The position numbers and the translations under genes are program-made. Below are positions 5,441 to 30,058 of a DNA stretch of 64,000 bases, piece by piece. The notes beneath the pieces are model-generated. The model had not been told where the DNA came from. It was given only the letters and a program-made list of their open reading frames with translations, and did no database searches. The DNA comes from Bizionia argentinensis JUB59. GTDB lineage: Bacteria; Bacteroidota; Bacteroidia; Flavobacteriales; Flavobacteriaceae. The stretch's first letter is position 1, and each line of letters opens with the position of its first letter. The stretch covers positions 248,001 to 312,000 of the forward strand of contig NZ_AFXZ01000002.1 in assembly GCF_000224335.1 (NCBI RefSeq), written 5' to 3'.

Positions 5441-7612
5441 ATGATACATATTCAGGAAAAAACACTTCAAGATCTAGAATTCTCAACAGTTTTACAGCAA
5501 GTCAGTAATTTATGTGTTACTGGTTTAGGTCATGAAGCTGTTTTGCAAGTATCTCCTTTAAAAAATAAGGAATCGGCTTTAAAAGCATTGGCTTTAACCA
5601 ATGAATATGTGGCATCGCTTATTAATGACAATCGCATTCCCAATCATGGTTTTGAAACGATAGCCAAAGAGTTAAAGCTTTTAAAAATTGAAAACACCTA
5701 TTTAGAGGCGCCTAGTCTTAAAAAAATTGTATCCATTTCCATTACAGCAAATGAAATCATATTATTTCTTAAGAAGTTCCAAGAATATTACTCTAACTTA
5801 TATGAGTTTGCTTCCGAAATTGAAATCACAAAAAAACTAATTGAAGAAATTGATATTGTTATTGATCGTTTTGGCGATGTGAAAGATAATGCTTCACCCG
5901 CTTTAAAAGGTATACGACTAGAAATTAATAATCTTAAAGGCAAGATTAATCAGAGTTTCGCGTCGGCATTAAACAGTTACCATCAGTTAGAATATCTAGA
6001 TGATATTCGTGAATCAGTTGTCGATAACAAACGTGTATTAGCTGTTAAAGCTATGTATAGAAGAAAAGTTAAAGGCTCTATTATGGGTGGCAGTAAAACA
6101 GGAAGCATTGTTTATATTGAGCCCGAAACTACACTGCGCTATACCCGAGAACTAAATAATCTAGAATACGAAGAAAACGAAGAAGTAGTAAGGATTTTAA
6201 AGTCTTTAACTGATTTTATTCGTCCGTTTTTGCCGTTATTGAAGGAATATCAAGATTTTTTAACGGAGATAGATGTTATTTCAGCAAAGGCAAAGTACGC
6301 CCAATCTATAGACGCTATTTTGCCTAGAGTTAATGAGGATCGTGAATTATATCTGCGCGACGCTTATCATCCCTTGCTATATTTAAGTAATAAGAAGAAA
6401 GAGCAAAAAACTTATCCACAGTCTATTCATTTAACAGAAGAGAACCGAATAATAGTAATTTCTGGTCCCAATGCTGGTGGAAAAAGTATCACTTTAAAAA
6501 CGGTTGGATTACTTCAAATTATGCTACAGTCTGGTTTTTTAATTCCTGTCCATGAACGCAGTACCGTATTTTTATTTGATAGAATCATCACAGATATTGG
6601 CGATAATCAATCTATTGAAAACCATTTAAGCACATACAGTTACCGCTTAAAACAGATGAATTATTTTCTAAAAAAATGTAACAAAAACACATTATTCCTT
6701 ATTGATGAATTTGGAACAGGATCGGATCCGGAACTAGGAGGTGCTTTAGCGGAAACTTTTTTAGAAGAATTTTACCATCGTGAGGCTTATGGCATTATAA
6801 CAACCCACTACTCCAACCTTAAAATTCTGGCTAACGAATTACCGCATATGCAAAATGCGAATATGATGTTCGATGAAAAAACACTAGAACCTATTTATAA
6901 ATTAGCATTAGGACAGGCCGGAAGTTCTTTTACTTTTGAAGTTGCCCAAAAAAATGGCATTCCATACGGTTTAATTAACCGAGCTAAAAAGAAAATAGAG
7001 AAAGGTAAAATCCGTTTTGATAGAACCATTGCCAAGCTTCAAAAGGAACGTTCTAAACTTGAAAAAACTGAACAATCCTTAAAGGTTAACGAACGTAAAA
7101 CAGAAGCTGAAGCTGGTAAATTAGAAGAAACAAATAGTAAAATTCAGAAAAAGCTGGAGAGTTATCAAGAATTGTATGACAGCAATCAACGTCTGATTTA
7201 TTTAGGTCAGAAAATAGATGATTTATCTGAAAAATTCTTTAACAACAAGCAAAAAGGCGTGTTGATGGATGAATTATTCAAATTAGTTCAAATTGAAAAT
7301 TCCAAACGCAAAAAAATCTCGGCTAAAACGCAAAAAGTAGAAAAAACTAAAATTCAAAAAGTTAAGCAAGAGGTCGAAAAAGAAGTCGTTGTTATTCGTG
7401 AAAAGAAAAAAGAAGCTAAACAAAAAGAAAAGGATAAACCAAAAGTACCACGACCAACTTTAAAAGTTGGCGATCGTGTACGTCTGCAAGATGGACGTGC
7501 GGTTGGAAGTATTGATACTATTGAAAAAAATAAAGCCTTTGTCAATTATGGTATGTTTACAACGAATGTCAGTTTAGATCAATTGGAATTGGTAGAATCT
7601 GTAAAAAAATAG
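5441..7612 (+). CDS. mutS2: MutS2-family ATPase, lacking the C-terminal Smr domain
   Basis: A 723-residue member of the MutS2 family, which acts on recombination intermediates and, in some bacteria, on collided ribosomes. The core and clamp regions occupy the first 330 residues. The ATPase follows, with Walker A GPNAGGKS at about 342-349, Walker B LFLIDEFGTGSDPE near 418, and the THYSNLK switch histidine. Residues about 530-660 form a long lysine/glutamate-rich coiled coil. The protein ends in a KOW-like beta segment (VGDRVRLQDGRAVGSI). The Smr nuclease domain that closes the Bacillus protein (about 785 aa) is absent, which I believe is common in this class. The endonuclease label is therefore not supported here. 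Confidence 0.93.
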   Translation: MIHIQEKTLQDLEFSTVLQQVSNLCVTGLGHEAVLQVSPLKNKESALKALALTNEYVASLINDNRIPNHGFETIAKELKLLKIENTYLEAPSLKKIVSISITANEIILFLKKFQEYYSNLYEFASEIEITKKLIEEIDIVIDRFGDVKDNASPALKGIRLEINNLKGKINQSFASALNSYHQLEYLDDIRESVVDNKRVLAVKAMYRRKVKGSIMGGSKTGSIVYIEPETTLRYTRELNNLEYEENEEVVRILKSLTDFIRPFLPLLKEYQDFLTEIDVISAKAKYAQSIDAILPRVNEDRELYLRDAYHPLLYLSNKKKEQKTYPQSIHLTEENRIIVISGPNAGGKSITLKTVGLLQIMLQSGFLIPVHERSTVFLFDRIITDIGDNQSIENHLSTYSYRLKQMNYFLKKCNKNTLFLIDEFGTGSDPELGGALAETFLEEFYHREAYGIITTHYSNLKILANELPHMQNANMMFDEKTLEPIYKLALGQAGSSFTFEVAQKNGIPYGLINRAKKKIEKGKIRFDRTIAKLQKERSKLEKTEQSLKVNERKTEAEAGKLEETNSKIQKKLESYQELYDSNQRLIYLGQKIDDLSEKFFNNKQKGVLMDELFKLVQIENSKRKKISAKTQKVEKTKIQKVKQEVEKEVVVIREKKKEAKQKEKDKPKVPRPTLKVGDRVRLQDGRAVGSIDTIEKNKAFVNYGMFTTNVSLDQLELVESVKK

Positions 7613-7665
7613 CCTAACAAACGGAGGTTCTAAACCTTTATGTGGACTACTAATAATTTCTTACG

Positions 7666-7673
7666 TATTTTTG
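7666..7673 (+). promoter_or_regulatory. TAnnTTTG -7 box directly before a start codon
   Basis: TATTTTTG ending only four bases before ATG 7678. Transcription normally begins several bases after this box, so the mRNA would start at or next to the ATG, that is, be leaderless. Confidence 0.55.
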
Positions 7674-7677
7674 ATAT

Positions 7678-8097
7678 ATGAAAAATGGTTTACCAAAACA
7701 TAAGCAGTTAGTTCTTTTTGATGGTGTATGTAATTTATGTAATGACGCCATTAATTATGTGATTAAACACGACAAAAATAATGTCTTTATGTTTGCGCCT
7801 TTACAGAGTGAAATAGGTAAGCAATTAATAAATGAATATAATATTGATACCCAAAAAATTGATTCCATTTTACTGTATTCTTTTGAAAACGGATTATTCC
7901 ATAAATCGACAGCTGCTTTAAAAATAGCTTCAAAATTGGGCTTTCCATTAAATCTGATGGTAGTTTTTTTTATTATCCCAACTTTTATAAGAAACTGGGT
8001 TTACGACTTTATTGCAAGAAATCGTTATAAATGGTATGGCAAAAAAGAAGCTTGCATTATACCAACAAAGGAATTGAAGGCGAAGTTCCTGGATTAG
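7678..8097 (+). CDS. DCC1-like thiol-disulfide oxidoreductase (DUF393)
   Basis: A 139-residue protein of the DUF393 family, named for its DxxCxxC start. LFDGVCNLC sits at residues 13-21 with Cys18 and Cys21, the thioredoxin-like redox pair. The family's second signature, ARNRYKWYGKKEACIIPT, is near the C-terminus, and a hydrophobic segment lies around 95-110. The actual partner is not known for most members. The TATTTTTG box ends four bases before the ATG, so the transcript is probably leaderless. No later Met near the N-terminus would keep the CxxC motif, which supports this start. Confidence 0.9.
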   Translation: MKNGLPKHKQLVLFDGVCNLCNDAINYVIKHDKNNVFMFAPLQSEIGKQLINEYNIDTQKIDSILLYSFENGLFHKSTAALKIASKLGFPLNLMVVFFIIPTFIRNWVYDFIARNRYKWYGKKEACIIPTKELKAKFLD

Positions 8098-8126
8098 CAT
8101 ATACATTTAAATATTTTAAATAAATT

Positions 8127-8798
8127 ATGAAAAATACTTTTAAACTAATAGCCATTTTAATTCTGGTATTTAATAATAGTTGTTCTAGCATTAAAGTTTT
8201 GGACGCTTGGAAGTCTGAAACCACTAATAAATTAGAAGATGGTAACGTATTGGTTATTGCCCGAACGGAAAATAAACAAGTGCGTACTGAATTCGAGCAA
8301 GAAATTGCTAAACAACTACGCGATAAAGGCGTGAAAGCTACTGAAAGCTTTAAAGATATGCCGAGTTTTAGTCATGAAGAAAAAGTTTCAGAGAAACAAT
8401 TAGAAAACTTTAAAGAGTTTTTAAAGAACGAAGGCTATAATGCTGTTGTTTTAACCATTTTAAAAGATTATCAGGAGCAAACTGAAACTACCGAAAGCGG
8501 TGGATATTATGCGGGTGCAAATCATGCAAAACCTTTTTATGCTCATTATTATGGAGGCTTTTTTGATTACTATTCAAACCCTCTGTCTTACTCTACTTTT
8601 GGCGACTATGTACCCGCAACTACTTCCACATATGTAATTAAAACATTTATTTTGGAAACGGTTGCATACGATTTAACTAAAGAAGAAGGCAAACAACTAT
8701 CAGCAGTTGTTACTGCAAAAATTGACGACCCTAAAAACGTAACAAAAAACGCAGAAGAATATAGCCGTAAAATAATTAAAGCGCTTACTAAAAAATAG
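8127..8798 (+). CDS. lipoprotein, possibly DUF4136-like
   Basis: A 223-residue protein with a lipoprotein signal (hydrophobic residues 6-15, then NNSC with Cys19). The body starts with a KVLDAWKS-type strand and contains a Tyr/Gly-rich loop around residues 130-155. This layout resembles the DUF4136-type outer-membrane-associated lipoproteins, but I cannot confirm the family. It follows the DUF393 gene by 29 bases and is closed by a strong terminator at 8821, so the two may share a transcript. Function unknown. Confidence 0.75.
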   Translation: MKNTFKLIAILILVFNNSCSSIKVLDAWKSETTNKLEDGNVLVIARTENKQVRTEFEQEIAKQLRDKGVKATESFKDMPSFSHEEKVSEKQLENFKEFLKNEGYNAVVLTILKDYQEQTETTESGGYYAGANHAKPFYAHYYGGFFDYYSNPLSYSTFGDYVPATTSTYVIKTFILETVAYDLTKEEGKQLSAVVTAKIDDPKNVTKNAEEYSRKIIKALTKK

Positions 8799-8820
8799 TC
8801 ATCAAATGTATTGATTAAGT

Positions 8821-8848
8821 AAAGCCTTGAAGATTTTCAAGGCTTTTT
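8821..8848 (+). terminator. Rho-independent terminator
   Basis: Stem AAGCCTTGAA / TTCAAGGCTT with a short loop, followed by a run of T. It closes the lipoprotein gene. Confidence 0.85.
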
Positions 8849-8909
8849 TATGCTTAAATTTCAATAAAATATAACAGGAATTTAACAACTACTCTAGTCA
8901 GAATAAAAC

Positions 8910-8917
8910 TAAATTTG
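8910..8917 (+). promoter_or_regulatory. TAnnTTTG -7 box for the RarD-type gene
   Basis: TAAATTTG, a full consensus match 20 bases before ATG 8938. Confidence 0.55.
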
Positions 8918-8937
8918 CAGATTAATTATTTGCGCAT

Positions 8938-9849
8938 ATGAATACCACAAAACACTATGTAGCCGTAACGTTAGCTTTCACTATTTGGGGCTTTTTTAGT
9001 TTGGTTTTAAGGCCTTTATCCGATTTTACTGCTTTTGATATTTTAAGTTATAGATCTATCGTAGCCGCTGCAATTATGTTGGTTGTAACATTATTCTTCA
9101 GACCAAAAGTATTAAAAAGGAATTTAGCACTTTTTAAGTCGCTTGAAAAAAAAGAACGTATTCGCATATTTTTTATTAATGCGTTTAGTGGTTTTTTTCT
9201 TGCATTAAATTGGTACATTTTTATTTATGTAATGAACAATGTGAGCGTTGGTGCAACCGCATTAGCGTATTTAATATGTCCGATACTCACCATGGTTTTA
9301 GCTTATATGGTCCTAAAAGAAAAACTCTTTAAGCTACAATGGTTTTCAGTATTTTTAAGTTTAACGGCTTGTATATTGTTGTCTTTAGGTAATTTGTCAG
9401 ATTTCCTTTATAGTATGGTTATAGCATTTACCTATGCTATTTATTTAGTATTGCAGCGTCGAAATAAAGAGATGGATAGGTTTTTAATATTAACAGTTCA
9501 GATTGTTTTTGCGGTAATTATCTTAAGTCCATTTTTCTTGACTTATGATTTTGAAACACCAAAAACAAACTACTTTTATAGTATGATTGCTTTAATAGCC
9601 GTTGGCTTTACAATTATTCCTATGTTTTTAAATATATATGCTTTAAGAGGTTTGAACTCCTCCGTTGTTGGCGTTTTTATTTATTTAAATCCATTAATCA
9701 ACTTTTTTCTAGCGGTCTTCTATTTTAAAGAATCCTTCACCCTATTGCAAGCTTTAAGTTATGGTTTAATAATTATATCGATTATTATCTTCAATATTCC
9801 CGCATTAAAACATAGAATTAATAGAAGAAGAGCAGCCCATATTCAATAA
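8938..9849 (+). CDS. rarD: EamA-family transporter, RarD type
   Basis: A 303-residue inner-membrane protein with about ten hydrophobic segments in two EamA (DMT superfamily) halves. The start (AVTLAFTIWGFFSLVLRPL), the early YRSIVAAAIM segment, and LNWYIFIYVMNNVSVGATALAY in the first half match the RarD ('chloramphenicol-sensitive protein') subfamily. GLNSSVVGVFIYLNPLINF is in the second half. RarD substrates are not established. The gene has its own promoter box and a terminator just after it, so it is monocistronic. Confidence 0.85.
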   Translation: MNTTKHYVAVTLAFTIWGFFSLVLRPLSDFTAFDILSYRSIVAAAIMLVVTLFFRPKVLKRNLALFKSLEKKERIRIFFINAFSGFFLALNWYIFIYVMNNVSVGATALAYLICPILTMVLAYMVLKEKLFKLQWFSVFLSLTACILLSLGNLSDFLYSMVIAFTYAIYLVLQRRNKEMDRFLILTVQIVFAVIILSPFFLTYDFETPKTNYFYSMIALIAVGFTIIPMFLNIYALRGLNSSVVGVFIYLNPLINFFLAVFYFKESFTLLQALSYGLIIISIIIFNIPALKHRINRRRAAHIQ

Positions 9850-9851
9850 AA

Positions 9852-9880
9852 AAAGGCCTCAGGAGCACTTTGAGACCTTT
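9852..9880 (+). terminator. Rho-independent terminator
   Basis: Ten-base stem (AAAGGCCTCA / TGAGACCTTT) with a single C-A mismatch and a 9-base loop, followed by TCTTT. It lies two bases after the RarD-type gene. Confidence 0.7.
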
Positions 9881-10123
9881 CTTTAAAACTAACTAAACAA
9901 ACTAAAAAACTCATCTAATGTAATTATTACCACTACTTTAACTGATTAAATATACTAATTTTATAGTAGTTAGTTAAAAACAATCGACAAAACGGTTATA
10001 AAATTGTTGAATTAAACGTTTTTGGTAAACTCTTTATGAATTATATTTTTTTTGGATAATAAATTGGGTGTCTATAAATCAATTTACTATTTTCAATAAA
10101 ACACTAAAAAACAAAACCCTAAC

Positions 10124-10900
10124 GTGACAGAAAAGTTAAAAACATCCGAGCTCAAAGAGTTTTTAGATGAGAAAGTTTCTCAATATAATACGTCTGACTT
10201 TTTAGATACCGATCCTATTAAAATACCACATTCGTTTTCTGAAAAGAAAGATATAGAAATTTCCGCTTTTTTAACAGCAACAATAGCTTGGGGAAATAGG
10301 AAAAGCATTATTAACAACGCACAGCGAATGATGCAAATGCTAGATCAGGAACCTTATAATTTTATAATGAACCATGAAAAATCCGATTTAAAAGCGCTAG
10401 AACCTTTTGTGCATCGGACTTTTAACGGGATGGATTTTATAACATTTATTTCTGGCTTACAGCATATTTACCAAAATCATAATGGACTTGAAGCTGTTTT
10501 TGCGAAGAATTCAGAAACAAATAGCTTACAACCTGCTATTCATCACTTTAAGAAAGCATTTTTTGAAATAGAACACTTGCAACGCACCCAAAAACATATT
10601 TCCGATCCATTAAAAAATTCTGCAGCCAAACGCATTAACATGTTTTTACGATGGATGGTAAGACCAGAAAATACAGGAGTCGATTTTGGTATATGGAAAT
10701 CACTACATACCAAACAGTTATCTTGCCCATTAGATGTGCACTCCGGAAATGTAGCTCGCAAATTAGGTTTACTAACTCGAAAACAAAACGATGCTAAAGC
10801 ACTATTAGAACTCGATACTAATCTTCGGAAACTAGACGCAAACGACCCCGTGAAATATGATTTCGCCCTTTTTGGATTGGGCGTTTTTGAAAATTTCTAA
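10124..10900 (+). CDS. TIGR02757 (DUF2400) family protein
   Basis: A 258-residue protein of the TIGR02757 family, a conserved Bacteroidota group of unknown function related to HhH-GPD-like DNA-repair folds. The recognisable stretches are ISAFLTATIAWGNRKSI (near residue 47), INMFLRWMVRPENTGVDFG, and the C-terminal KYDFALFGLGVFE. The start codon is GTG at 10124; no ATG lies nearby in frame. The upstream spacer has only an imperfect TATTTTCA box at 10088. The next gene begins 44 bases after its stop with its own box. Family call firm, function unknown. Confidence 0.87.
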   Translation: MTEKLKTSELKEFLDEKVSQYNTSDFLDTDPIKIPHSFSEKKDIEISAFLTATIAWGNRKSIINNAQRMMQMLDQEPYNFIMNHEKSDLKALEPFVHRTFNGMDFITFISGLQHIYQNHNGLEAVFAKNSETNSLQPAIHHFKKAFFEIEHLQRTQKHISDPLKNSAAKRINMFLRWMVRPENTGVDFGIWKSLHTKQLSCPLDVHSGNVARKLGLLTRKQNDAKALLELDTNLRKLDANDPVKYDFALFGLGVFENF

Positions 10901-10910
10901 CTTAATTCAG

Positions 10911-10918
10911 TATCTTTA
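10911..10918 (+). promoter_or_regulatory. -7 box for the S10 peptidase
   Basis: TATCTTTA, seven of eight consensus bases, 26 bases before ATG 10945. Confidence 0.45.
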
Positions 10919-10944
10919 TCAATCAATTTACATATTTTACTTTC

Positions 10945-12429
10945 ATGAAAAAACTACTATTTACTTTAAGTGTTTTGTCACTTTTTAATGCGCATGCACA
11001 AGGGCGAAAAATACCTGCTGATACTGCGATTGTTACCAACCATAAAACAACTATTAATGGTGCAAACATCGCTTATTCTGCAACTACTGGAACGCAGCCT
11101 GTTTGGGACAAAGCGGGAGACCCTATTGCCACATTATTTTACACGTATTATAAACGCAGTAATGTTAAGGATCAAGCTAACCGTCCATTAATCATTTCTT
11201 TTAATGGCGGACCAGGTTCGGCATCGGCTTGGATGCATATTGCGTATACAGGTCCGCAAATTTTAAATATTGATGACGAAGGGTATCCAGTACAACCTTA
11301 TGGTGTAAAAAGTAATCCTTACTCTATTTTAGATGTCGCAGATATTGTTTTTGTAAACCCTGTAAATACAGGTTATTCCCGAATGATTGAAGATAAAGAA
11401 GGGAAACTACCAGACAGAAGTCAATTTTTTGGTATCAATTCTGACATTCGTTATTTAGGAGAATGGATTAACACGTTCATGTCTAGAAATAATCGTTGGG
11501 AATCTCCAAAATATTTAATTGGTGAAAGTTATGGTGGACCGCGAGTAATGGGTCTGGCACAAGAGTTACAAAACAGCCAATGGATGTATTTAAATGGCGT
11601 AATTTTAGTGTCGCCTGCAGACTATAAAGTATATTCTACAGATCAACCTATTTATTCGGCTTTAAATTTACCTTATTTTGCAGCAACTGCTTGGTATCAA
11701 AAAGCTTTAGATCCTTCTCTTCAACAAAAAGATTTATTAGAAATATTGCCAGAAGTGGAAGCTTACGCTATTGATAAACTTATGCCCGCAATTGCAAAAG
11801 GAGGCTTTATTTCTTCGGAAGAAAGAGAACAAGTTGCACAAAAATTCAGTTTGTATTCTGGTTTGGATAAAAAGTCTATTTTAGATCATAATTTAAATGT
11901 ACCAACCAATTTTTTCTGGAAAGAACTATTACGCGACCGTGGTTTTACTATGGGTAGATTAGATTCTCGTTATTTAGGAATTGATAAAATGACTGCAGGA
12001 AATTCACCTGATTACAATGCGGAAATTTCTTCGTGGTTACATTCCTTTACGCCAGCAATTAATTATTACTTAAGAGAGCATTTAGACTTCAAAACTGATA
12101 TGAAATATAATATGTTTGGAGATGTGCATCCTTGGGATAGACAAAATGATAATACTAGAGATCGTTTGCGTCAAGCAATGGCACAAAACCCGTATTTAAA
12201 AGTATTAGTACAATCTGGTTATTATGACGGCGCAACCACTTATTTCGCTGCTAAATATACGGTTGGACAATTGGATCCAGCCGGAACGATGAATGATCGA
12301 TTCACCTTTAAAGGTTACCGAAGTGGCCATATGATGTATTTACGTAAAGAGGATTTAAAAACGGCGAATGATGATATTCGTGAGTTTATTAAAAACTCGC
12401 TGACTAATGGTAAGTCTGCGAAATATTAG
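10945..12429 (+). CDS. S10-family serine carboxypeptidase, secreted
   Basis: A 494-residue exported peptidase. Residues 1-18 form a signal peptide ending in AHA-QG. The S10 hallmarks are all present: the oxyanion motif FNGGPGSAS near 86-93, the nucleophile in GESYGG (Ser195), an aspartate in SGYYDGAT (Asp428) and a histidine in RSGHMMYL (His462). S10 enzymes trim residues from the C-terminal end of peptides at acidic to neutral pH; this one likely works in the periplasm or outside the cell. It converges with the M61 peptidase gene, and the two share the bidirectional terminator at 12459. Confidence 0.93.
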   Translation: MKKLLFTLSVLSLFNAHAQGRKIPADTAIVTNHKTTINGANIAYSATTGTQPVWDKAGDPIATLFYTYYKRSNVKDQANRPLIISFNGGPGSASAWMHIAYTGPQILNIDDEGYPVQPYGVKSNPYSILDVADIVFVNPVNTGYSRMIEDKEGKLPDRSQFFGINSDIRYLGEWINTFMSRNNRWESPKYLIGESYGGPRVMGLAQELQNSQWMYLNGVILVSPADYKVYSTDQPIYSALNLPYFAATAWYQKALDPSLQQKDLLEILPEVEAYAIDKLMPAIAKGGFISSEEREQVAQKFSLYSGLDKKSILDHNLNVPTNFFWKELLRDRGFTMGRLDSRYLGIDKMTAGNSPDYNAEISSWLHSFTPAINYYLREHLDFKTDMKYNMFGDVHPWDRQNDNTRDRLRQAMAQNPYLKVLVQSGYYDGATTYFAAKYTVGQLDPAGTMNDRFTFKGYRSGHMMYLRKEDLKTANDDIREFIKNSLTNGKSAKY

Positions 12430-12458
12430 ACTTTATAAAGTCTAATTCCATAAAACAA

Positions 12459-12496
12459 AAAACACCTGATGAAACAAATCATCAGGTGTTTTTTTA
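12459..12496. terminator. bidirectional terminator between S10 and M61 peptidase genes
   Basis: A perfect 12-bp stem (AACACCTGATGA / TCATCAGGTGTT) with loop AACAAA. An A-run precedes it and a T-run follows, so it can stop transcription from both convergent genes. Confidence 0.9.
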
Positions 12497-12533
12497 TCTT
12501 TAAAATTGTGTTTATCAATTTCAAATTACTTTA

Positions 12534-14426
12534 TTAACCTTTTAACCATGCGTTACGCAACTCTTTTTGAGTCGCTGTAGCGTTTGATTTAGCACGTAAA
12601 CTTTTTCCTGTTGTATAAGTAGGCGTCAATGCTTTTTTAATAACCATATCTTTACCGTTTCTGCTTAAAACTACATTAACTTCTTGATTTTCTTCCCAAG
12701 AAAACATTTCTTGAAGTACGGTATTAGCATTTTGTAAAGTAACAACTGTTCCATCTACAGATTTGATTATATCGTTTGGCAATACACCATTATCTTTCCA
12801 AAAACTATTAGCTAATACATTATCAGTAAAGAAAACAGTTCCTGCCTCTTGGCTTCCAGTTACAATCAAAGCACCATTTCCTTGGATATAATTTGTTCTA
12901 ATAGGCCCCTCACCTATTTCAAGACCTACTTTTTCAAAAAAGGCATCGTAATCAATCGGCGTTTCGCCAATCACGTGATTATCAAAAAAGCCACGTAAAG
13001 TTGGATAGGTCATTGCTACCATTTCATCCATGATTTTATCATCATCAAAAGGTTTATTCTGACCATATTTCATAGATAGTTCTTTCATCATAGATAAAAT
13101 ACCACGGTTGCCATCACTTCCTTCACGGATTAAAATATCAATACACATACCTATTAATGCTCCTTTTTGGTAAACGTTATAATATTGATTTGCATATGGC
13201 TCATCTAATACATTTTCACTCATTTTAGTAAAACTCATAGAGTCATTCATAGTCAAAGAGCTACTAATTTTCTCCATTATTTTTCCATAAAACTCATCTT
13301 CAGGAATTAAATCTTGATCAACTTGAAAAAGTGTTGCAAAATATTCCGTTACACCTTCATACATCCATAAATGCTTTGAAAATGTTGGTGTGTGATAATC
13401 AAAATAATGTACATCATCAGAATGCACACTTAAAGGCGTAACAATATGAAAAAACTCGTGCGATACAATATCAATCATACTTGCATCTAAAGCTTCACTC
13501 GGCATAGATTCTGGCATAACTACAGTTGTTGACGTATGGTGCTCTAATGCGCCAAAACCTTTAGGAGAACCTTCCTCCCCATCTGATAAATAAACATAAA
13601 TATCATAACGAGGTGTACTATTAATATCACCTAAATATGTTTTTTGAGCTTCCATCATTTTCTGCATCGCATCTTTCATCGATTTAGCTGTATGGATTCC
13701 GTTTGGCGAATAAACACTCAACATAACCTTTATATCACCTACTTGAAATTCTTCAACGTCCAATTTCCCGTACATCATTGGGTTATCTGTAATATCAAAA
13801 TAACGTGGTGCAAAATAAGAAGACGTTACTACATTACCGTCAGCACTTGTTTTGGTGTCTGCTAATTGTAAAGAAGATGTTCTTACCAAATCTGAAGGTG
13901 CAATAACATCCAATTTATATTGACTGTTTTTTAAAGAATCAAAATAGCCAATAAAACCATGTAAGTTTAATAAGTAATTATTTGGCTCGATGTTCGTTCC
14001 TGCAGGAGAAAATGGTACTTCTCCACCAATTCCACCAACTTTTTCTTGATCAAATGTATCATTTACATAATATGTAATGTAATCTAATTCCTTGGCATTA
14101 CCGATAGTCCAAGAGTTAGTATCGATTTTGTTTGTTTCTAATTTATTTCCGTTATAATCATATGCTTCAAAAGTGTCAACGTATTTTCCAAAATCACTTA
14201 CAGAATATGTTCCTTGAACTACTTTTGGAAGTCTGTATGTTACCGTTTCAACCGTAAAACGTCCTGGGTTAATATTTACAGGTACTTTATCATCGGTTAC
14301 TTTGGTAATATCAATTACCGTTTCAATGGGGTTGCTAGTGGCTAAATCGTCACTACTTGTTTTCGTAGAGGATCCACAAGCAACAAGCAATGTGGAAAAA
14401 CCAATAATGGCTAAAGTTTTTTTCAT
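12534..14426 (-). CDS. M61 (glycyl aminopeptidase) family metallopeptidase, lipoprotein
   Basis: A 630-residue lipoprotein (signal IIGFSTLLVAC, Cys17). It has an M61 N-terminal beta domain (about 40-230), the peptidase domain with the zinc motif SHEFFH near residue 322 and the third ligand glutamate in LWMYEGVTEYFA about 40 residues later, and a C-terminal PDZ domain (about 500-600) where the GVLPNDIIKSVDG groove is visible. M61 enzymes release N-terminal residues, classically glycine or alanine. It probably sits on the envelope facing the periplasm. A TATTTTTG box at 14457-14464 on this strand gives a 31-base leader. Confidence 0.92.
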   Translation of the reverse strand: MKKTLAIIGFSTLLVACGSSTKTSSDDLATSNPIETVIDITKVTDDKVPVNINPGRFTVETVTYRLPKVVQGTYSVSDFGKYVDTFEAYDYNGNKLETNKIDTNSWTIGNAKELDYITYYVNDTFDQEKVGGIGGEVPFSPAGTNIEPNNYLLNLHGFIGYFDSLKNSQYKLDVIAPSDLVRTSSLQLADTKTSADGNVVTSSYFAPRYFDITDNPMMYGKLDVEEFQVGDIKVMLSVYSPNGIHTAKSMKDAMQKMMEAQKTYLGDINSTPRYDIYVYLSDGEEGSPKGFGALEHHTSTTVVMPESMPSEALDASMIDIVSHEFFHIVTPLSVHSDDVHYFDYHTPTFSKHLWMYEGVTEYFATLFQVDQDLIPEDEFYGKIMEKISSSLTMNDSMSFTKMSENVLDEPYANQYYNVYQKGALIGMCIDILIREGSDGNRGILSMMKELSMKYGQNKPFDDDKIMDEMVAMTYPTLRGFFDNHVIGETPIDYDAFFEKVGLEIGEGPIRTNYIQGNGALIVTGSQEAGTVFFTDNVLANSFWKDNGVLPNDIIKSVDGTVVTLQNANTVLQEMFSWEENQEVNVVLSRNGKDMVIKKALTPTYTTGKSLRAKSNATATQKELRNAWLKG

Positions 14427-14526: not shown

Positions 14527-15534
14527 ATGTGCGAAACCCAAATAAGTATAGTCACTCCTTTTAAAAATACAGAGAGTTTTATTTCGGAATGCTTGCGGTC
14601 TATTGTTAACCAAACCCACACAAATTGGGAGTTGGTAATTGTAGATGATGGATCTGATGATAATAGTTTTAAAATAGTTTCCGAGTTTGCAGCAAAAGAC
14701 AAACGCATAAAATTGTATGAAAATCCAGGTTCAGGCATTATTGACGCTTTGCAATTTGCTTTTTTAAAAAGTTCTGGAAATTATATCACCAGAATGGATA
14801 GCGATGATATTATGACACCTAATAGATTAAAAGTAATGATTTCTAGCCTAAAAGAATATGGAAAAGGTCATTTAACTGTCGGACAAGTAAAATACTTTAG
14901 AAAAGATGGAATCAGCGATGGTTATGCCAAATACGAAATATGGTTGAATAATTTAACTGCTAAAGGATCTAATTATTCTGAAATCTATAAAGAATGTGTT
15001 ATTCCATCACCTTGTTGGATGGTACATCGTGACGATTTTATAGCCTGTGACGGGTTTAATCCAAATACCTATCCTGAAGATTATGATTTAGCTTTTCGGT
15101 TTTACAAATACAATATAAAATGTATTCCTTGTAATGAAACGCTTCATTTATGGCGTGATTATAGCACACGAACATCCAGAACTCACCAAAATTATGCGGA
15201 AAACCACTTTTTAGAACTTAAAGTCAACTATTTTTTAGAATTAGATTATAACGCTTCCAAACCATTAGTGCTTTGGGGCGCTGGAAAAAAAGGTAAAACG
15301 GTGGCTAGATTATTACAGACGCAAAATATTCCGTTTTATTGGATTTGCGATAATCCGAAAAAAATAGGAAAGGATATTTATGATAATACTTTGCAGGCGA
15401 CTAATTACCTAGAAACCCTACGTAATCCGCACTGTATAATCACAGTTGCTAATAAAAAGGAACAAAAGAATATAAAAAAATATCTATCGGATTTAGCTTT
15501 GAAATCTGCTGTCGACTACTTCTTTTATTGTTAA
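14527..15534 (+). CDS. GT2 glycosyltransferase fused to a Rossmann-like tail domain
   Basis: About 335 residues. The N-terminal 220 are a GT-A family 2 glycosyltransferase: ISIVTPFKNTESFI, the nucleotide-sugar site VIVDDGSDDNS, the DxD-type motif RMDSDDIM, and YPEDYDLAFRFYK as acceptor/base region. After about residue 235 comes a second domain opening with PLVLWGAGKKGKTVARLL, a glycine-rich nucleotide-binding-like turn, followed by IPFYWICDNPKKIGKD. I take ATG 14527 rather than the in-frame ATG 14503, because a promoter-like TATATTCG box lies between them and the shorter form starts as typical GT2 proteins do. It stands alone, not in a polysaccharide cluster. Acceptor unknown. Confidence 0.85.
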   Translation: MCETQISIVTPFKNTESFISECLRSIVNQTHTNWELVIVDDGSDDNSFKIVSEFAAKDKRIKLYENPGSGIIDALQFAFLKSSGNYITRMDSDDIMTPNRLKVMISSLKEYGKGHLTVGQVKYFRKDGISDGYAKYEIWLNNLTAKGSNYSEIYKECVIPSPCWMVHRDDFIACDGFNPNTYPEDYDLAFRFYKYNIKCIPCNETLHLWRDYSTRTSRTHQNYAENHFLELKVNYFLELDYNASKPLVLWGAGKKGKTVARLLQTQNIPFYWICDNPKKIGKDIYDNTLQATNYLETLRNPHCIITVANKKEQKNIKKYLSDLALKSAVDYFFYC

Positions 15535-28317: not shown

Positions 28318-28974
28318 ATGACCAAGCAAGAAAAGGTAGAATTCGTTATAAAAACGTTAAAGGAAATATATCCAACTATTCCCGTGCCTTTAGATCATAA
28401 AGATCCATACACCTTACTAATTGCCGTTTTAATGTCCGCTCAAAGCACCGATGTTCGCGTAAATAAAATAACGCCGCTACTCTTTGCAAAGGCCGACAAT
28501 CCTTATGATATGATAAAACTAACGGTTGATGAAATACGAGATATTATTAGACCTGTTGGATTATCACCGATGAAAAGTAAAGGTATTCATGGTTTATCAC
28601 ATATACTTATTGATAAACACGACGGTCAAGTTCCTAAAACTTATGAAGATTTAGAAGCGTTACCAGCTGTTGGACATAAAACAGCAGCTGTAGTTTTATC
28701 GCAAGCCTTTGGAATACCTGCTTTCCCAGTAGATACGCATATCCATAGATTAATGTATCGTTGGGGATTTACAAATGGTAAAAATGTGGTTCAAACAGAG
28801 AAAGATGCTAAACGACTATTTCCGGAAGACATCTGGAACGACTTACATTTACAAATAATCTGGTATGCCCGTCAATATTCGCCAGCGCGTGGTTGGGATA
28901 TGGAAAAGGACATTATTACTAGAACTATTGGTCGCAAAACAGTGTTGAATGATTATTATGCTAAAAAGAAGTGA
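28318..28974 (+). CDS. nth: endonuclease III without the iron-sulfur cluster
   Basis: A 218-residue DNA glycosylase/AP lyase of the HhH-GPD superfamily that removes oxidised pyrimidines. The helix-hairpin-helix LEALPAVGHKTAAVV holds the lyase Lys121, and VDTHIHR holds the catalytic Asp139; both positions match E. coli Nth. The C-terminus differs: where E. coli has four cysteines holding a [4Fe-4S] cluster, this protein ends ...YSPARGWDMEKDIITRTIG... then VLNDYYAKKK, with no cysteine in the region. The last ten codons are also the first 30 bases of a tandem repeat that continues downstream. It is divergent from bcp. Confidence 0.95.
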   Translation: MTKQEKVEFVIKTLKEIYPTIPVPLDHKDPYTLLIAVLMSAQSTDVRVNKITPLLFAKADNPYDMIKLTVDEIRDIIRPVGLSPMKSKGIHGLSHILIDKHDGQVPKTYEDLEALPAVGHKTAAVVLSQAFGIPAFPVDTHIHRLMYRWGFTNGKNVVQTEKDAKRLFPEDIWNDLHLQIIWYARQYSPARGWDMEKDIITRTIGRKTVLNDYYAKKK

Positions 28975-29155
28975 GTATTTAAAAGGAATAGATCGTTCGA
29001 AAGCTATCGGAACTTTAAGAATATATAATTAATACTTGATCTGCGAACATCTGCGAACATCTGCGTAATCAGCGGGAAATAAACATTAGCGAATGGGGAA
29101 ATACGCTTCGTTGTAATTTATCAGTATCGTTGTAATAAAGAACTTCATTTATGAG

Positions 29156-29175
29156 ATTCCTGCCTACGCAGGAAT
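29156..29175. repeat. repeat hairpin, unit 1
   Basis: ATTCCTGC-CTAC-GCAGGAAT, a perfect 8-bp stem with a 4-base loop. Equivalent hairpins are at 29381-29400 and 29616-29635 (loop CTTC) and 29849-29868 (see separate entry). Confidence 0.9.
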
Positions 29176-29848
29176 TGTGTTGAATGATTATTATGCTAAA
29201 AAGAAGTAAGTATTTAAGAGGTATAGATCGTTCGAAAGCTATCGGAACTTTAAGAATATATATTTAATACTTGATCTGCGAACATCTGCGTAATCAGCGG
29301 GAAATAAACATTAGCGAATGGGGAAATACGCTTCGTTGTAATTTATCAGTATCGTTGTAATAAAGAACTTCATTTATGAGATTCCTGCCTTCGCAGGAAT
29401 TGTGTTGAATGATTATTATGCTAAAAAGAAGTGAGTATTTAAAAGGAATAGATCGTTCGAAAGCTATCGGAACTTTAAGAATATATAATTAATACTTAAT
29501 CTGCGAACATCTGCGAACATCTGCGTAATCAGCGGGAAATAAACATTAGCGAATGAGGAAATACGCTTCGTTGTAATTTATCAGTATCGTTGTAATAAAG
29601 AACTTCATTTATGAGATTCCTGCCTTCGCAGGAATTGTGTTGAATGATTATTATGCTAAAAAGAAGAAGTAGGTATTAAAGAGGATAAACCGTTGCAACA
29701 ATGCTATCGAAAATTTTAGAATTTAGAATATAGACTTGATCAGCGAAAATCTACGAATTCAGCGGGAAATAAACATTAGTGAATGGGATAATTCTTCTCG
29801 CTTCAATATAACCATATAAATTTTGTATTAAGCGACAATATAAATGAG

Positions 29849-29868
29849 ATTCCTGTCTATACAGGAAT
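29849..29868. repeat. repeat hairpin, unit 4, with compensatory change
   Basis: ATTCCTGT-CTAT-ACAGGAAT. The loop-closing C-G pair of units 1-3 is replaced by T-A on both sides, so the stem stays perfect although the rest of the unit has drifted. Confidence 0.9.
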
Positions 29869-29871
29869 AAA

Positions 29872-29905
29872 AAAAAGTCCTGAGACTAATAAATCAGGAC
29901 TTTTT
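29872..29905. terminator. bidirectional terminator after the nth repeat array
   Basis: A 12-bp stem AAAAAGTCCTGA / TCAGGACTTTTT with a 10-base loop. It is placed between the nth side and the reverse sigma-factor unit, so it can end both. Confidence 0.85.
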
Positions 29906-29911
29906 CAAAGT

Positions 29912-30058
29912 TTAGTTGAGAAGTGCTTCAAACTTCATCTTATTACAATTTATAACACTTAAAGCCTTCGAGTAATCAAGAAGAAATTTTATGGTTTCCT
30001 CTTTTGGGTTTAAATCAACTTGTCGTTGGTTTGTTTTTTGAGAGTAAAGTTTTGCCAT
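29912..30058 (-). CDS. 48-aa conserved-looking small protein downstream of the sigma factor
   Basis: A complete small frame, ATG 30058 to TAA 29912, encoding 48 residues that begin MAKLYSQKTNQRQVDLNPKE and end KMKFEALLN. It is charged, soluble and partly helical (KEETIKFLLDYSKALSVI). It starts 57 bases after the sigma-factor stop on the same strand and ends six bases before a strong terminator, exactly the room a real gene would need. Codon use looks like that of its neighbours. I do not know its function. Being immediately downstream of an ECF sigma factor, it is co-transcribed with it and could modulate it, but it is too short and not membrane-bound for a classical anti-sigma protein. Confidence 0.7.
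   Translation of the reverse strand: MAKLYSQKTNQRQVDLNPKEETIKFLLDYSKALSVINCNKMKFEALLN

Follow-up and report, generated by a model that had tools for sequence, protein, structure and literature searches.

A tandem array of gene tails behind nth and its association with a dispersed REP-like hairpin

What kind of event leaves the last codons of an intact gene standing four times in a row? The question is posed by nth, the endonuclease III gene (28318..28974, plus strand, 218 aa; Pfam HhH-GPD, E 8.8e-21), in a window of 64,000 nt, which is part of contig C69 of a 3.28 Mb genome assembled in 70 contigs. A first-pass annotation of this DNA had described a four-unit tandem array behind the gene at 28942-29868. 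Both Tandem Repeats Finder, which reports it twice (period 235, 3.7 copies, score 1283 at 28942-29787; 3.1 copies, score 1327 at 28942-29666), and an alignment of the units confirm that the array is real. The same 30 bases, encoding VLNDYYAKKK, head all four units, as had been claimed, and in unit 1 they are the last ten codons of nth itself. The units follow one another on the plus strand as unit 1 (28942..29176, 235 nt, stop TGA), unit 2 (29177..29401, 225 nt, stop TAA), unit 3 (29402..29636, 235 nt, stop TGA) and unit 4 (29637..29868, 232 nt, stop TAG). The further statement that the protein end is kept at any unit number holds apart from one lysine; the end of the nth protein is not quite invariant because unit 4 is longer by a Lys codon before the stop (AAGAAGAAGTAG).

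Over aligned bases, units 1 and 3 are identical at 232/235 positions (98.7%), units 1 and 2 at 220/225 and units 2 and 3 at 219/225 (97-99% overall), whereas unit 4 matches units 1-3 at 167-170 of 224 (~75%). Each of units 1, 2 and 3 differs from the other two at sites of its own, evidence against a purely duplicated assembly. A tandem array of near-identical units is one trait of a VNTR and is found at nth by both Tandem Repeats Finder and alignment. A 10-base element inside the units also varies in copy number, as first noted, with 2.7 copies in units 1 and 3 (29039..29065 and 29499-29525, plus strand; Tandem Repeats Finder) and one fewer in unit 2. A protein-coding array could be ruled out: the unit lengths are not all multiples of three, and the sole listed ORF of at least 60 aa that touches the array is nth. 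An Rfam search gave no match at the gathering score, and a known RNA family was rejected. Just beyond unit 4 the inverted-repeat list places AAAAAGTCCTGA/TCAGGACTTTTT (29872..29905), a likely shared terminator that stands behind nth in relatives too, and next to it lies a convergent small ORF on the minus strand (29912..30058, 48 aa by translation); by eye, DNA like it also follows nth in relatives. This inverted repeat would likely serve the convergent ORF as terminator as well; it is not listed by the terminator scan, which within the array lists the hairpin of unit 4 alone, on the minus strand.

A genome-wide search for the non-coding part of the unit, proposed in the first-pass annotation, found it elsewhere in the form of two dispersed modules. 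Module A (29049..29091 in unit 1, plus strand; repeated in units 2-4 and weakest in unit 4) is made of ATCTGCG repeats with the core TAATCAGCGGGAAATAAACAT, and the 10-base repeat is part of it. It occurs at four further places in the genome with 87-91% identity, each time downstream of a gene and in the sense of that gene. Module B is a 21-nt REP-like hairpin (GATTCCTGCNNNNGCAGGAAT) with a stem of 8 bp, scattered through the genome, in which every nth unit ends. A B pattern search and junction distances place it at plus-strand coordinates 29155..29175 (unit 2 starts 1 nt past this right arm), 29380..29400, 29615..29635 and 29848..29868, in an orientation opposite to nth. B is exact at 22 places in this genome, with 5-16 matches in each of five relatives and 0 control matches, and 51 of 249 genomes of the family match a longer B pattern exactly. 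At a tolerance of up to two mismatches, 50 distinct places were examined in this genome, the four of the nth array among them. The stem pairs are compensated at 9 of 19 two-mismatch places (2% expected; binomial p 3e-11), among them unit 4 of the array, where a C-G to T-A double change keeps the stem of this terminator-like hairpin. As single-stranded DNA, B alone folds at -6.8 to -7.7 kcal/mol. When a B that starts from 2 nt before to 5 nt after the end of a stop codon is counted as at the stop, B adjoins a stop codon in one fixed orientation at 57/132 places in all genomes examined (18/50 in this genome, 14/30 in sister species and 25/52 in other genera), and in the opposite orientation at 2, 1 and 0 places, respectively.

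By these properties B resembles REP elements, in that it is a short palindrome of many copies lying mostly outside genes whose stem is kept through complementary changes. Where sites were read with their flanks, the consensus tag beside the stem is TGAG/CTCA and no terminal GTAG or CGTC tag was seen, so B falls outside the two large REP superfamilies. Some longer forms of B (L199 1462, L206 1838, L205 1658) carry an extra stretch before the CTCA end. None of the genome's three Y1_Tnp matches proved to be a cognate RAYT flanked by B: a search beside the first two found no B, and the third, which does not reach the Pfam cut-off, has one weak B-like site nearby. Mobilisation of B by a RAYT was rejected because the palindrome on either side of the Y1_Tnp gene at C42 is a different one. 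This second dispersed palindrome (GACCTCACAGGTTTT..AAAACCTGTGAGGTC) flanks the gene at G000:C42:14675-14707 and 15305-15338 (G000 being this genome) and is also present at L118 4048-4080.

The comparison of the nth 3' region, proposed earlier for sister strains and made here with congeneric species, places the array in this genome. The gene was found in five congeneric species, and its 3' region is single-copy in 5/5 (one genome per species). In G003, G005 and G002 one nth tail is followed by the same terminator-like repeat within ~50-210 nt, and in G001 80 nt separate the nth-tail match from the terminator match; G003 and G004 have a single copy with B behind nth. A Tandem Repeats Finder run on loci that included the 80 named loci nearest by Nth (almost all records labelled Flavobacteriaceae or genera of that kind) found an array of period at least 40 at the nth end in this genome only, some of the loci having little downstream DNA. 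Upstream of nth, Flavobacterium sp. ov086 has a tandem repeat of period 208 (L067 949-1402; 2.2 copies, 97% matches).

The order in which the units arose can be approached through the single-copy spacer of G003, to which unit 4 is the nearest of the units. At the 52 sites where units 1-3 agree against unit 4, this spacer has the state of unit 4 at 26, that of units 1-3 at 12 and neither at 14, which puts unit 4 nearer the ancestral spacer. The first-pass annotation was thus right that units 1-3 are near-identical, and its drifted unit 4 must be reversed: the greater change appears to have occurred in the ancestor of units 1-3. Its proposal that these three grew recently from an older copy can be kept in part, as an older two-unit state would fit both the identities and the single-copy congeners. 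Some states common to units 1 and 3 are missing from unit 2, which suggests later exchange between repeats. The identical 30-nt head of unit 4 was considered as proof of gene conversion, with a chance of 5.6e-5 at the full spacer rate and 0.011 at half that rate; it was not used in this way because of the latter value and because unit 4 is the shorter branch.

The first-pass annotation had not noticed that every unit closes with a dispersed hairpin, that the 10-base repeat belongs to a second dispersed module, or that other genes of the genome are duplicated likewise at the same hairpin. Further cases came from self-comparison of B-centred stretches followed by reading, gene names other than nth being assigned by eye from translations. 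In this genome B sites led to tail or terminator duplications at nupC, leuS, gldG, apbE, ctaD and an hlyD-like gene, and in two other genera to a methyltransferase gene, dnaN and lepA. The nupC unit, upstream of thyA, measures 256 nt and is duplicated in G003 too (L176). The tail copies span 165 nt at leuS (73% identity), 164 nt at apbE and 189 nt at the hlyD-like gene, and gldG has two tail copies, two events with different left breakpoints. At ctaD the post-stop terminator and spacer were copied rather than codons, as were the terminator or spacer of dnaN in G195; in the same genome an identical 38-nt tail and stop of the methyltransferase gene were copied, and at lepA in G184 106 nt, including the stop and B. 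Among the sister genomes, tail copies are absent from G003 at leuS and apbE, and the gldG matches end at the stop codon in 5/5 sisters (four spacers read). The ctaD duplication extends beyond this genome, since G003 has two ctaD terminators (without evident B) and G002 one. One homologous mobile element as the source of the spacers was rejected, the spacers of duplicated loci sharing little beyond B and the adjoining A/T-rich stretch.

What these junctions have in common is their right edge. With anchors set by hand, the distance from the right arm of B to the start of the copy is 1-12 nt at 10/10 measured junctions (nth 1, 1 and 1 nt; gldG 12 and 5; apbE 3; ctaD 6; methyltransferase 8; dnaN 4; lepA 1), and at nupC the copy starts after a decayed B, by eye. 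Overall the copy begins 1-12 nt past a B hairpin at 11 of 13 junctions; those of leuS and the hlyD-like gene are without B and count against a model built on it.

To set these cases against a background, 843 gene ends were tested in parts of this genome that are not B-centred (the window and 50 stretches, 20 of these from contigs known to hold B; 1,056,141 bases in all). Tail repeats were found at 3/15 gene ends with B within 700 nt versus 2/828 without (p 4.5e-5), and with nth left out at 2/14 near B (p 0.0015), figures to be read with the small number of gene ends near B, with nth as the starting locus and with nupC as a case found through B. This control supersedes a first one with looser criteria (7/632 gene ends, B-linked ones included). 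Of the two repeats without B, one has the shape of a tandem paralogue pair (L136) and the other precedes genes for GG-leader-like peptides (L165). The latter locus (G000:C59:80001-100000) holds at 7017-13100 a run of small genes of this kind with repeated leaders, behind hlyD-like and thiol-protease-like genes, all by eye; such a run is also seen at L213. An intergenic tandem repeat common to two species, apparently at the same place, has two 120-nt copies in this genome (L146 1937-2167) and three 97-nt copies in G002 (L174 1610-1875). Counted by B locus, tandem self-hits occur at 8/39 in this genome, 1/23 in sister species and 4/44 in other genera; L128 (neighbouring tRNA genes by eye) and L255 (a longer repeat of B type at a distance of 853 nt) were dropped, which leaves 7/39 and 3/44. 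L250 and L264 have self-hits that are not at B by the criterion used, and the B loci of G116 and G072 have no tandem self-hit. Joining the B-centred counts with the 843-end control gives a Fisher p of 7e-9, which is indicative only because the two counts use different windows.

We favour, with a probability of roughly 0.55, the reading that the nth array arose when hairpin B nucleated a duplication of the gene tail. DNA synthesis just past B would slip by backward template switching, or a break at B would be repaired, and copying would resume upstream inside the gene end, leaving a tandem copy of the tail, stop codon, spacer and B. Right edges fixed at B, combined with left edges that vary, are what slippage or break repair starting from the hairpin would be expected to leave. 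Since each event would copy the gene tail, the gene would stay whole, and since the upstream copy restores the reading frame, the duplication would be near neutral and survive. At nth the first event would be old, separating unit 4 from the rest, and later exchange between repeats may have produced units 1-3. Against this reading stand the leuS and hlyD junctions, the low share of B loci with a self-hit in sister species and other genera, and the two ctaD terminators that G003 already has without an evident B.

The same data can be read without a role for B. The nth end might have been duplicated by chance and amplified by slippage or unequal exchange, with B at the edge because hairpins are common behind genes. 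Units 1-3 do look exchange-amplified, intergenic tandem repeats without B do occur in these genomes (L146, L174) and B is missing at the leuS and hlyD junctions; an ordinary repeat of this sort is nevertheless unlikely, given that B forms the right edge at most junctions while the left edges vary, and given the excess of tail repeats at gene ends near B. Copy number could alternatively be functional, the repeated hairpins tuning nth mRNA or shielding nth from its convergent neighbour. The variable array upstream of M. tuberculosis fpg1 is reported to correlate with fpg1 expression (PMC2734929), B near stops resembles REPs for which stalling of ribosomes is reported (PMC12306157), and the compensated stem changes in B would suit such a role; against this, the RNA of unit 1 downstream of the nth stop folds as shuffled sequences do (z -0.33) and one copy suffices in relatives, and we hold a functional array to be highly improbable. 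That the assembly misleads, and that the real copy number is other than four, perhaps one, we find hardly credible: the assembly is in 70 contigs and units 1 and 3 differ at three sites only, yet units 1-3 have their private differences and similar events recur at other loci and in other genomes.

A further reading would retain B and add an enzyme. B and a small stand-alone GIY-YIG nuclease could form a mobile pair, as REP and RAYT do, in which B settles at stop codons and is spread by the nuclease, insertion or cutting at B and subsequent repair regenerates the gene end in tandem, and the nth array is an amplified scar. Four small GIY-YIG genes, several with stops, lie in B-centred stretches of this genome (L206 1208-1495, L199 1653-1937, L121 1145-1414 and L330 853-1101), each followed by AAAAGAT and a hairpin, with 0 in the 1.06 Mb of other stretches; two of the four are Pfam-confirmed (E 7.1e-14 and 7.5e-16) and are 58% identical to each other. 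The L121 gene, of ~90 codons with an internal stop, has a B hairpin on either side, at a place where G004 carries a single B and G001 a decayed one. This filled and empty site comparison for a cassette with B ends is a single pair, this genome versus G004, with copies that are partly broken. The place has no B in G002, G003 and G005, internal stops interrupt 2/4 copies and an upstream stop a third, 3/4 copies lie within 12 kb on one contig, the window has no GIY-YIG match, and no such gene lies in the 40 B-centred stretches taken from five genomes in other genera. One of 30 loci from the longer-B-pattern search holds a GIY-YIG gene (G007). B places and GIY-YIG genes are crowded on one contig stretch of this genome, G000:C68:60000-76500. 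We consider both the mobile pair and its extension to the nth array quite unlikely, and the GIY-YIG link to B is a lead rather than a result.

If gene-tail duplication nucleated at B is the right reading, an isolated repeat would become an instance of a possible rule, by which a small hairpin marks the junctions of duplicated tails (nth, nupC, gldG, apbE, lepA) and terminators (dnaN, ctaD). Were the rule true, it would provide evidence from nature on the way in which hairpins initiate tandem duplication in bacteria, and a route by which REP-like elements could accumulate beside essential genes while these remain unbroken. The general kind is already known: PMC3733652 describes tandem repetition of REP clusters together with DNA at their flanks, and PMC12306157 reports E. 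coli REPs that lie no more than 15 nt from stop codons. No paper on the B hairpin family or on gene-tail duplication at B was found among the literature matches listed, and to the extent of those matches three things are new: the B family, the constant orientation in which it meets stop codons, and the rule for gene tails.

Like the GTAG- and CGTC-tagged REP/BIME elements, B is a short dispersed palindrome with alternative complementary stem residues, often at gene ends; unlike them, it has no GTAG or CGTC end and bears TGAG/CTCA beside the stem, none was seen next to the Y1_Tnp gene of C42, and the flank repeated at B is specifically a gene tail or terminator. For the GIY-YIG reading the comparison is REPIN-RAYT (PMC3116915). 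Such systems combine hairpin pairs with a small single-domain enzyme and differ in that the enzyme there is a Y1 transposase and here would be a GIY-YIG nuclease; if true, the link would be a second hairpin-enzyme pairing beside REP-RAYT. Among intergenic VNTR/MIRU arrays, that of M. tuberculosis fpg1 resembles nth in being an intergenic array beside a DNA-glycosylase gene and absent in most related species, according to PMC2734929. In that account the fpg1 array consists of 37 bp repeats between the rnc stop and the fpg1 start, whereas at nth each unit of ~230 nt holds a gene end together with a hairpin.
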